A DNA stretch of 64,000 bases, taken from assembly GCF_014850955.1 (NCBI RefSeq), contig NZ_JACXSS010000001.1, positions 3,100,001-3,164,000 of the forward strand. The letters run 5' to 3'. The stretch comes from Methylomonas albis (GTDB lineage Bacteria > Pseudomonadota > Gammaproteobacteria > Methylococcales > Methylomonadaceae). The notes beneath the pieces were generated by a model, which was not told where the DNA came from, did no database searches, and was given only the letters and a program-made list of their open reading frames with translations. Each line of letters starts with the position of its first letter. Position 1 is the stretch's first letter. Made by a program: the position numbers and the translations under genes. This document shows positions 6,149-8,501 of this stretch, piece by piece.

Positions 6149-6303
6149 TGGCGTATAAAACTCCCTGGAAGGCACGTCCCGGCATCCCAACTGCACCTTC
6201 GCCAACAGGGAATGCAACCCCGGCAGGTTCGGCGGTGCCCCCAGAAGACTCGGGGGCGCCGCCGGACGGCTTGGTGATGCCTTCCGGATAGTTTTATACG
6301 CCA
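6149..6303. repeat. 155-bp inverted-repeat (MITE-like) element
   Basis: The arms 6149-6174 and 6278-6303 are 26-base inverted repeats with 3 mismatches (TGGCGTATAAAACT at the outer end, GGAAGGCA at the inner end). Inside is a second hairpin, GGCGGTGCCCCC at 6231-6242 against GGGGGCGCCGCC at 6252-6263. A third palindrome abuts it (CCAACGGC at 6301-6308 with GCCGTTGG at 6330-6337, around ACTGCGCAGT). There is no reading frame inside. The structure fits a non-autonomous mobile element or a bulky extragenic palindrome between converging genes. It fills most of the gap 6024-6416. Confidence 0.6.
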
Positions 6304-6416: not shown

Positions 6417-7853
6417 TTATGGCAAGCACGGATTCAATGCGTTGCAGATTTTTTTGCCTGATTGGCCGGCTGGTTTGCCGAACATGGCTTTGAATTTGCT
6501 CAGATCGGACAAGTCTACGCGTCCGTCTTCGTTCAAATCCAATTTTGGGTTACGCGCCGCATCGCGGAAGTCCTGCTTGAAGATGCGCAAATCCACCAAG
6601 TTGGCTACCTGGTCGCCCAAGTTATTGGCCCAATGTGCGTCGCAAGCGTTGCCGATGCCATCGCCGTCATCGTCTCGTTGCGCAACGTCGCCGTGATGAT
6701 TAGGTTCCACGATGCAATTGTCATTGCCGTCATCGATGCCGTCACCGTCCGAATCCAGATTCACCGCAACCATTTGCACGCCCTGTAGATTACCGATAGC
6801 CGCGTCAAGCGGATTGCCATTGGCGTCAACATCAATATCCGCTTGCGGATCGGCTTCGCCTTCTACCGTCAATGTCCCGGTGTATTTGTAGAACTCGTAG
6901 CGGCGAGTGACCGATTTCTTGCCATTCTGCAATTGCCCACCGTTGGCTTGTTTGGCAACAGCCGCGCCGCCGTTACCGCCTTTTTTTCCACCGCCACCCA
7001 AGAATAGGGGGTTGCGCTGTTGCATGATTTCCCATTCGATCTCGGTTTCAACCACATTGTTCACGTCGTCATTGACCGGGTTTTTAGGGTCGTCGAACAG
7101 CAAATGTTCCAGTTTGGCCGATTGTTCGGTTTCAGTCTTAATAACCTTCATCCATTGTGCCGGTCCAAACTTATCCTCAGGGTGTTCGAGTTCAGGCGCT
7201 TCGACTTCGGCAATGACTTCCGGCTGCGGATTCAGGTCCGGTTGTTGGGCCGGCTGCACATTCCAGATAGGGGCAGGAATAGAGGCTGACACCGGCAACC
7301 CGGTACCCGGATTGGTGACTGGAATCAGGTTGCCCGGCGTAGCAGGATCGGCTACCAGCCAGCGGTAAATAGTTTGCGTCGCGGTGCCGATAACACCAAC
7401 CCCAAAATGCTCACAGCCGCTACTAGCATAATTACCAATCGGACCGCCAAGGTAGCAGGCGTGCCCGCCAGTATTCGTCACTGCCGGCGCACGAGGCGTG
7501 GTTTCGGTGAAACGGCTAGCCCCTGCATCGTAAGGTGATTCATAGCGTATGCGGGTAACCGCCTTACCTTGCGCATCGATGCCGCCGTCGATAACCAGTG
7601 GATTACCGTAGCGTTGGTAAGGGGCACCGAAAGAGTAGCCTATCTCCGATTTCGATACGCCGTGCAGCTCGATTTCGAAACCATGCACCTCCACTTCCGG
7701 AGGATTGTCGTTGTAAACGTCAAAATTGCTTAAGGAGCCGTACAAAGGCGCATTCGGATCGGTCACGGCTGTAGCAACAGAGGCAAAGGCAGACATGGCG
7801 ACCATCATTGCCAATAGCGTTGGTCGATTGGGACGAATTGAAGTAATGCTCAT
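6417..7853 (-). CDS. Secreted protein with thrombospondin type 3 repeats and a C-terminal dockerin
   Basis: 478 residues. A signal peptide (LLAMMVAMSAFASVATA) leads into a long domain of no recognised family with two cysteines. A glycine-rich linker (FLGGGGKKGGNGG) sits near residue 280. From about residue 370 there are calcium-binding thrombospondin type 3 repeats (DSDGDGIDDGNDNC, then DDDGDGIGNACD), and the last 60 residues hold a dockerin-like pair: a degenerate first loop ending VDLRIFKQDF and a clean second loop LDLNEDGRVDLSDLSKF. A CCAGGAATTAAT ribosome site precedes the ATG at 7853. The gene starts 33 bases after the stop of the upstream cohesin-like gene, so the two are probably one operon. 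The function is unknown; a calcium-stabilised extracellular part is the safest statement. Confidence 0.8.
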   Translation of the reverse strand: MSITSIRPNRPTLLAMMVAMSAFASVATAVTDPNAPLYGSLSNFDVYNDNPPEVEVHGFEIELHGVSKSEIGYSFGAPYQRYGNPLVIDGGIDAQGKAVTRIRYESPYDAGASRFTETTPRAPAVTNTGGHACYLGGPIGNYASSGCEHFGVGVIGTATQTIYRWLVADPATPGNLIPVTNPGTGLPVSASIPAPIWNVQPAQQPDLNPQPEVIAEVEAPELEHPEDKFGPAQWMKVIKTETEQSAKLEHLLFDDPKNPVNDDVNNVVETEIEWEIMQQRNPLFLGGGGKKGGNGGAAVAKQANGGQLQNGKKSVTRRYEFYKYTGTLTVEGEADPQADIDVDANGNPLDAAIGNLQGVQMVAVNLDSDGDGIDDGNDNCIVEPNHHGDVAQRDDDGDGIGNACDAHWANNLGDQVANLVDLRIFKQDFRDAARNPKLDLNEDGRVDLSDLSKFKAMFGKPAGQSGKKICNALNPCLP

Positions 7854-7886
7854 ATTAATTCCTGGGTCGAATGTAACAAGGACGAC

Positions 7887-8501
7887 TTAAGCCAACGCGG
7901 CTGAACGAGTACGCAAACCGACGAAACCGGCCATAGCGCTGGCAAACAACCAGGCGGCACCAGGCAGAGGTACCGCTTGTGGCACCGGCGTTACCGTCAA
8001 TGTTGATCCGGCAAATGAAATGACCGGGATAGCCGGGTTCGGATTACTGGCGTCGAAGAAAGTGAATCCGCCGTTGAAGACGTTTTCCAGCAGGTCGATT
8101 TGACTGATCCCATCACTGACTGCGGTGAAACTGATGGAACCAATCAGAAAGCTGCCTGTTTTACCGCTGAAACTGCCGAACCCCAAACGGTTGGCATGAC
8201 TGCCTGCGTCATCGATGACTGGATTGTCGGAAAAGCTCTCTTCCCAGGAAGGATCGAATGTTGCCGCGTCAATACGCAGTACGCTTGGATCGCTGGAGGT
8301 AATGTCTAGGCCGCCGCCCAATAATTCGAGATTTACCGGAAAATCGGTTGCCAGTATAGATAGTGAAAACGAGCTGCCTGGATGTATTTCCGCCAGCGGC
8401 GCGCTAAACGAAATAGTTGGCGCGGCTTGGGCCGCCTCGCAGCCTGCAACCAGGGAAATAGCGACCGCCAGAGTGCGCATGGATGAAAAAAAACGGTGCA
8501 T
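7887..8501 (-). CDS. Exported cohesin-like protein with VPLPGA C-terminal sorting tag
   Basis: 204 residues from the ATG at 8501, preceded by AAGGATTCTT; a longer frame upstream lacks a signal-peptide logic. The signal peptide is at about residues 8-27 (ending EAAQA). The body is a single beta-sandwich-like domain with the cohesin-type rhythm: an opening strand ending EIHPGSSFSLSILATD, then LDITSSDPSVLRIDAATF, and GSFLIGSISFTAVSDG. The C-terminus has the tripartite PEP-CTERM/VPLPA-CTERM signal: VPLPGAAWLF, a membrane helix, and an Arg-containing tail (LRTRSA). Such tags are processed by exosortase-type enzymes. It lies directly upstream of a dockerin-bearing gene. Confidence 0.75.
   Translation of the reverse strand: MHRFFSSMRTLAVAISLVAGCEAAQAAPTISFSAPLAEIHPGSSFSLSILATDFPVNLELLGGGLDITSSDPSVLRIDAATFDPSWEESFSDNPVIDDAGSHANRLGFGSFSGKTGSFLIGSISFTAVSDGISQIDLLENVFNGGFTFFDASNPNPAIPVISFAGSTLTVTPVPQAVPLPGAAWLFASAMAGFVGLRTRSAALA

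Follow-up and report, generated by a model that had tools for sequence, protein, structure and literature searches.

Can a bacterium hold one secreted protein at its surface by plugging it into another? The question is raised by two adjacent genes of Methylomonas albis (Methylococcales), P0001 and P0002, which lie 33 bp apart on the minus strand of a 64,000-nucleotide stretch of contig NZ_JACXSS010000001.1 (assembly GCF_014850955.1, positions 3,100,001 to 3,164,000), referred to here as the window; the host genome comprises 5.4 Mb in 2 contigs. An initial annotation, made from the sequence alone, had described the first protein as cohesin-like with a VPLPGA tail and the second as ending in a dockerin after thrombospondin type 3 (TSP3) repeats, and had proposed that the first anchors the second at the cell surface. 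The spacing, the tail, the repeats and the dockerin are all present in the sequence. The two genes very probably encode a one-cohesin, exosortase-anchored adaptor and its dockerin-tagged cargo, and constitute one instance of a modular kit for display. The features of the adaptor gene are the following.

7887..8501, minus strand: P0001, cohesin-like anchor gene, 204 amino acids (open reading frame, ORF; AlphaFold2 model with cohesin matches).
8424..8501, minus strand: N-terminal signal peptide of P0001, residues 1-26 (sequence read by eye).
7986..8423, minus strand: cohesin-like β-sandwich domain of P0001, residues 27-172 (nine modelled strands of at least 3 residues; PDB ranks 1-45).
7890..7976, minus strand: VPLPGA exosortase-type sorting tail of P0001, with motif, membrane helix and basic end, residues 176-204 (helix at model residues 155-177; sub-threshold PEP-CTERM and VPLPA-CTERM; two exosortase genes in the genome).

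P0001 carries one cohesin domain. Residues 27-204, modelled by AlphaFold2 with 23 relatives, gave a high-confidence structure (predicted local distance difference test, pLDDT, 88.7; predicted template modelling score, pTM, 0.76) with nine strands, as in the cohesin-type β-sandwich, and a C-terminal helix. When this model was compared with the PDB by Foldseek, cohesins or cohesin-bearing chains occupied ranks 1-45 (best E 4.6e-8) and 49 of the best 50 rows, the remaining one being a Gram-negative fibrillar adhesin domain (9ifr) at rank 46; the cohesin-like fold that had been read from strand motifs is thus borne out. Searched with a profile of the domain, 18 of 20 wide loci around homologues contained relatives, and after iteration over 75 further loci the cohesin model was built from 38 sequences; when the ORFs of these first 20 wide loci and of the 75 scan loci were reversed as a control, it had no match at E ≤ 1. 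The Pfam Cohesin family was matched at E ≤ 1 by 13 of 32 aligned family members (best 8.5e-11), and the cohesins paired in loci L050 and L083 exceeded its cut-off, with 30.4 and 42.5 bits. Against PDB sequences, a 24-member family profile returned 12 matches at E ≤ 10, nine of them, at E 0.0057 to 3.9, being identifiable by name or otherwise as cohesins or cellulosomal proteins, with modest values such as 0.0057 for 5lxv, 0.007 for 6kg8, 0.09 for 4ums and 0.26 for 1ohz.

The VPLPGA motif occupies residues 177-182 and is followed by a hydrophobic stretch and arginines; motif, membrane helix and basic residues are all visible in the tail, with curated scores below cut-off. PEP-CTERM was matched at E ≤ 1 by 20 of the 32 aligned family members (the row of the window having been entered without its tail), and the genome encodes two exosortases, with PF09721 matches at 245 and 235 bits.

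The cargo gene is organised as follows.

6417..7853, minus strand: P0002, dockerin-bearing cargo gene, 478 amino acids (ORF).
7767..7853, minus strand: N-terminal signal peptide of P0002, about residues 1-29 (sequence read by eye).
6792..7766, minus strand: cargo domain of P0002, about residues 30-354 (no Pfam family over cut-off; homologues with PEP-CTERM tail, dockerin or neither).
6633..6767, minus strand: TSP3-like repeats of P0002, about residues 363-407 (sub-threshold Pfam TSP_3; profile of relatives matches PDB thrombospondins).
6468..6641, minus strand: dockerin module of P0002, about residues 405-462, with a GKPAG end equivalent to GKPPGPSG of relatives (alignments, fold matches, PDB sequence matches).
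6504..6539, minus strand: calcium loop 2 of the dockerin, DLNEDGRVDLSD, residues 439-450, complete (alignment).

The dockerin stretch of P0002, LDLNEDGRVDLSDLSKF, is preceded by the TSP3-like repeats and belongs to a family whose alignments show a conserved core ending in GKPPGPSG. A phmmer search of the PDB with P0002 gave a dockerin, 2y3n_B, as the sole match at E ≤ 10 (E 0.038), and a profile of its relatives recovered solved dockerins at 8.9e-9 (2y3n_B) and 2.3e-6 (CelS), matching PDB thrombospondins as well through its TSP3 part. Foldseek returned 32 matches at E ≤ 10 for the modelled module, ranks 1-17 being dockerins or dockerin-bearing chains at weak E values of 0.088 to 2.7. The dockerin fold was therefore recovered with moderate confidence, and the C-terminus holds two helix-loop (F-hand) repeats according to the model, the fold matches and the phmmer result. 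In loop 2, the calcium ligand positions 1, 3, 5 and 12 are complete. The N-terminal domain, of about 325 residues, matched no Pfam family over cut-off.

Two-fold symmetry of the recognition residues, as in the dual binding mode of type I, is expected of cohesin-binding dockerins but not required of all dockerins. In the family of the window, the two repeats are identical at position 22/49 in 107 of 118 members (68 when shuffled) and at position 23/50 in 99 of 118 (52 when shuffled), these positions preceding the invariant Asp of the repeats. When the commonest motifs were left out, 23 of 61 triplets matched between the repeats, against 1.4 after shuffling. The repeat-matched recognition motifs differ by locus across L064-L158 (SFA, NFA, NTL, NSL, DPF, STP), which suggests many specificities.

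The relatives of the cargo domain suggest what the dockerin does for its protein. Among 28 homologues of the P0002 N-terminal domain, 13 end in a PEP-CTERM-like tail of their own, 6 in a dockerin (the window included) and 9 in neither, two of the last (L048 and L060) running past the end of the stretch, with C-termini outside the sequence examined. A cohesin gene lies within about 1.5 kb of all six dockerin forms and of none of the 13 tailed forms or the 9 others, in rows that share ancestry, are not independent and include near copies (L040/L041 and L049/L050). Four of the six adjoining cohesins were identified by the model and two by position and sequence (one of these was scanned and gave 30.4 bits for Pfam Cohesin); a repeat with six more cohesin queries left the counts at 6/6, 0/13 and 0/9. 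A paralogue in the genome of the window, at L077, is a seventh dockerin form, and its neighbour is 55% identical to a Pfam-positive cohesin. The dockerin together with a neighbouring tailed cohesin thus appears to replace the protein's own sorting tail, and we regard this pattern as the strongest functional argument. The proposed anchoring gains support because the dockerin-bearing homologues adjoin a cohesin gene and those with their own tail do not.

The pairing was then followed in 151 Methylococcales genomes, with up to 24 candidates scored in each. Among the matches listed, 79 cohesin-like rows of at least 61 bits covered the domain (a partial row, G006:C3, with 74.3 bits, was dropped); the dockerin set comprised 66 strong and 56 weak rows, without some ten fragmentary or partial ones (in G068, G092, G020, G028, G111, G012, G002). 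A same-strand dockerin was present within 6 kb of 75 of the 79 cohesin-like matches listed, a count that includes closely related species and not independent events. At 41 of them the neighbouring dockerin, always on the same strand, matched the class of the window's dockerin, in part of the cases weakly. Twenty-six of the remaining 38 were inspected first, and 25 adjoin another dockerin, assigned by sequence motif only in L162, L163 and L190 and by weak matches (E up to 9e-4) in several others; the second dockerin model used here derives from four dockerins in the genome of the window, and three of them (L078, L079 and L161) are themselves counted in the 25. The last 12 contributed 9 more. 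As for the four unpaired cohesins, no dockerin was found at L193, the nearest one to L198 is about 4 kb away on the opposite strand, and L202 and L203 lie at contig ends. Cohesins located next to dockerins had served to train the cohesin search model, and most weight therefore falls on the 12 matches that reach at least 90 bits and were not used in training (the near copy G034 uncounted): a class-A dockerin lies within 1.5 kb of 11, and the twelfth (L163) overlaps a dockerin-motif gene.

The opposite approach started from the dockerin only. The search covered 84,980 genomes, and the best 80 of 392 relatives gave 75 loci, including four (L084, L086, L099 and L143) on already sampled contigs. 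A cohesin-like gene was found in 23 of the 75, within 300 bp of the dockerin gene in 17 of the 23. Some loci hold several dockerin genes and one cohesin, such as L069 with four dockerin ORFs.

Cohesin and dockerin also vary together. Over 43 pairs, 41 of which have both genes on one strand, the similarities of the two partners were correlated (Mantel r 0.288; none of 5000 permutations as high). On a quick tree, computed for 73 cohesins from 117 columns (43 class A and 30 class B labels), the class of the adjacent dockerin required 2 changes against 23.5 after shuffling, none of 500 shuffles being as low, on a topology in which 30 of 69 inner branches are poorly supported. L084, L086, L099, L143 and L071 were removed from both analyses. 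The genome of the window itself holds about six pairs covering both dockerin classes, namely the window, L077, L078, L079, L161 and L162, the last resting on a dockerin motif only; six may be a lower bound, with 24 of 108 candidates scored in this genome. The interpretation offered by the initial annotation is supported and broadened, the pair being one of about six in its genome and belonging to a kit that is widespread. Two outcomes named in that annotation as refuting it, a first protein without a cohesin-like fold and a gene pairing that is not conserved, did not occur.

The proteins that carry the dockerin are diverse. In 28 of them, Pfam families over cut-off were peptidases C25, S8 and S11, PhoX, DUF1800, endonuclease/exonuclease, BNR repeats and a lactonase-like propeller, with a GH123-like domain barely above it (22.2 against 22 bits). 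Cytochrome c7 exceeded its cut-off in two of the 28, one of which also passed that of MtrC/MtrF. Kelch and one CBM_4_9 (17.7 against 25.9 bits) were sub-threshold only, and in several proteins no family beyond TSP3 or dockerin was recognised. No cellulase was found by Pfam among the 28, in agreement with the earlier suggestion of an assembly unrelated to cellulose.

Dockerin-tagged multihaem cytochromes adjoin cohesin anchors in two methanotroph loci, L070 (6549-9206) and L076 (10025-12037), the MtrC/MtrF match being over cut-off in the former and just below it in the latter. Their composition suggests surface-docked electron-transfer proteins.

Two other loci show different arrangements. In L102 (6217-12195), from a Chromatiales metagenome-assembled genome (MAG), a frame of 1992 amino acids combines a cohesin-like domain with a TSP3-dockerin, like an adaptor scaffoldin, and adjoins a dockerin gene and a cohesin-PEP-CTERM gene. 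In L156 (6498-7127), from a Desulfosarcinaceae MAG, a PEP-CTERM-tailed protein of 209 amino acids that the cohesin model does not match follows a dockerin gene and is possibly a divergent partner.

These features suggest how the pair could work. P0001 would be secreted as a single-cohesin anchor whose VPLPGA tail is most likely processed by an exosortase, and this processing would leave the cohesin at the cell surface or close to it. P0002 would be secreted as the cargo, its C-terminal dockerin plugging into the P0001 cohesin, probably with calcium. With the dockerin standing in for a sorting tail, one small anchor could display large or unrelated cargo.

We lean slightly towards a further generalisation, in which plug-in display is a general system of Methylococcales and other proteobacteria, with several orthogonal exosortase-anchored cohesin/dockerin-cargo pairs per genome, at least two specificity classes, and dockerins exchanged for PEP-CTERM tails. 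If this is true, such pairs would fasten to the outer surface or matrix not only proteases and phosphatases but even MtrC-like multihaem cytochromes, and Gram-negative bacteria would have a sortase-free counterpart of cellulosome anchoring. The consistent architecture, a small exosortase-tagged cohesin gene beside a dockerin-tagged cargo gene, gives a concrete, testable function, and would provide a rationale for some small PEP-CTERM proteins missed by curated models, as well as possibly a new set of orthogonal binding modules with which Gram-negative cells could be made to display proteins.

Several results weigh against the adaptor and cargo interpretation. P0001 matched no curated cohesin model in Pfam or NCBIfam, PF00963 included, the cut-off of the latter being a detection criterion and not a defining cohesin trait. 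The top PDB match of the cohesin profile (1e-4) was 7urp, whose chain bears the name Ribonucleases G and E, and plainly other proteins account for two of the 12 matches. The tail of P0001 scored 12.5 bits for PEP-CTERM (cut-off 20.7) and 14.1 for VPLPA-CTERM (cut-off 25.35), while P0002 scored 12.6 for Dockerin_1 (cut-off 22.9) and 6.4 for TSP_3 (cut-off 25). Since the curated models are sub-threshold for the window proteins, the case rests on families, folds and neighbourhoods. The dockerin model of P0002 is only moderate (pLDDT 70.7, two helices), its loop 1 is degenerate, with the first Asp missing and a 3-residue insert, and it lacks the two-fold symmetry of its relatives (NLV against DLS), the dockerins of the three closest pair homologues (L064, L080 and L082) being likewise asymmetric. 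In the dockerin-only sample, a cohesin was detected in 10 and not in 24 of the 34 loci that extend at least 3 kb in each direction, so that the neighbourhood is not obligatory; the cohesin model misses some cohesins, for example in L077 and L050, and lone dockerins are to be expected where several cargoes share an anchor or the model overlooks the partner. Finally, joint inheritance of the locus could yield co-variation without binding.

It is unlikely that P0001 and P0002 do not bind each other, each dockerin using another cohesin of the cell or the anchors being interchangeable, and that their adjacency reflects co-expression only. The genome does encode several cohesin-like anchors (about six), and in some genomes unlinked dockerins are many and cohesins few, G068 having 12 strong dockerins of which 3 are within 6 kb of a cohesin. 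Such free exchange is hard to reconcile with the almost perfect tracking of cohesin type and adjacent dockerin class on the tree, and with the divergence that correlates across pairs, but cross-binding within the dockerin class of the window could still occur.

Less probable still is that P0001 is a cohesin-fold matrix or adhesion domain and the P0002 dockerin a decayed, non-binding module. The degenerate loop 1 with its insert, the sub-threshold family scores and the adhesin domain at Foldseek rank 46 would fit such a decay; on the other hand, loop 2 and the FGKPAG end are both preserved, and the three homologous pairs in G032, G073 and G150 (P0002 identity 44-47%) keep both partners side by side. 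That ordinary clustering of PEP-CTERM surface genes explains the adjacency is hardly credible. Such clustering would fit the presence of more than one ORF with a PEP-like tail in many of the 20 control PEP-CTERM loci; against it, a dockerin was present in one of the 20 only (L206), beside a cohesin-like ORF of its own. The control loci were hand-picked as matching the cohesin profile via the tail, with no more than part of the domain included, and two of them, L207 and L220, are shorter because their contigs end.

Just 3' of the dockerin gene, at 6149-6303 of the window, there is an inverted repeat with 26-nt arms, 88% complementary and 103 nt apart; the stretch (161 bases) had no second match in the genome.

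The adaptor and cargo pair can finally be placed among known systems. In the clostridial cellulosome (type I/II; CipA, SdbA, OlpA), a surface anchor protein carries a cohesin. The cohesin fold, the dockerin family and the cohesin-bearing surface anchor are shared with it, whereas the pair described here has one cohesin per anchor, an exosortase-type tail instead of S-layer or sortase anchoring, and no cellulases in 28 cargoes. A cellulosome proper was rejected for this locus, with one cohesin in P0001, no scaffoldin in the window and no cellulase among the scanned cargo. Non-cellulosomal cohesins and dockerins were reportedly catalogued by Peer et al. in 2009. Modules likewise outside cellulose degradation are those of Archaeoglobus fulgidus (2xdh, Foldseek rank 29 for P0001) and of NagH/NagJ from Clostridium perfringens (2ozn, rank 16 for the P0002 module). 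In contrast with the catalogued modules, which to our knowledge do not have such an anchor-cargo gene layout, a small dedicated exosortase-tailed anchor gene here adjoins the cargo gene and recurs several times per genome.

A further comparison is offered by the anaerobic methanotrophic archaea (ANME) and their bacterial partners, for which the relevant passages of two articles (PMC9012536, PMC10553843) describe dockerin/cohesin proteins with variable attached domains, propose a role in surface attachment or adhesion, and mention a partner adhesin with adjacent cohesin/dockerin domains. The ANME proteins described there differ in combining a dockerin with up to five cohesins, or S-layer and dockerin, and the term PEP-CTERM has 0 occurrences in PMC10553843. 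In the gammaproteobacterium Saccharophagus degradans, two ORFs are described as dockerin-like and six as having distant cohesin-like modules, and surface anchoring is considered; gene pairing or an exosortase tail was not met in the relevant part of that article (PMC2386152). Cohesins and dockerins have long been recognised outside cellulosomes. Their function there was called unknown in the pertinent section of a 2017 review (PMC5244752). In open-access full text, with most subscription journals outside the search, there was no joint mention of cohesin, dockerin and PEP-CTERM, or of "cohesin domain" and PEP-CTERM, and exosortase occurred with dockerin or cohesin only in an archaeal-methanotroph review, which draws no link between them in the passages concerned. 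Cohesin-dockerin surface attachment is thus known in kind, and the exosortase-anchored pair appears undescribed in the searchable literature. With the PEP-CTERM/exosortase surface proteins, P0001 shares the visible layout of its tail, motif, membrane helix and basic end, at curated scores below cut-off; it would differ from them in that the tagged protein looks like an adaptor, so that the cargo itself would need no tag.

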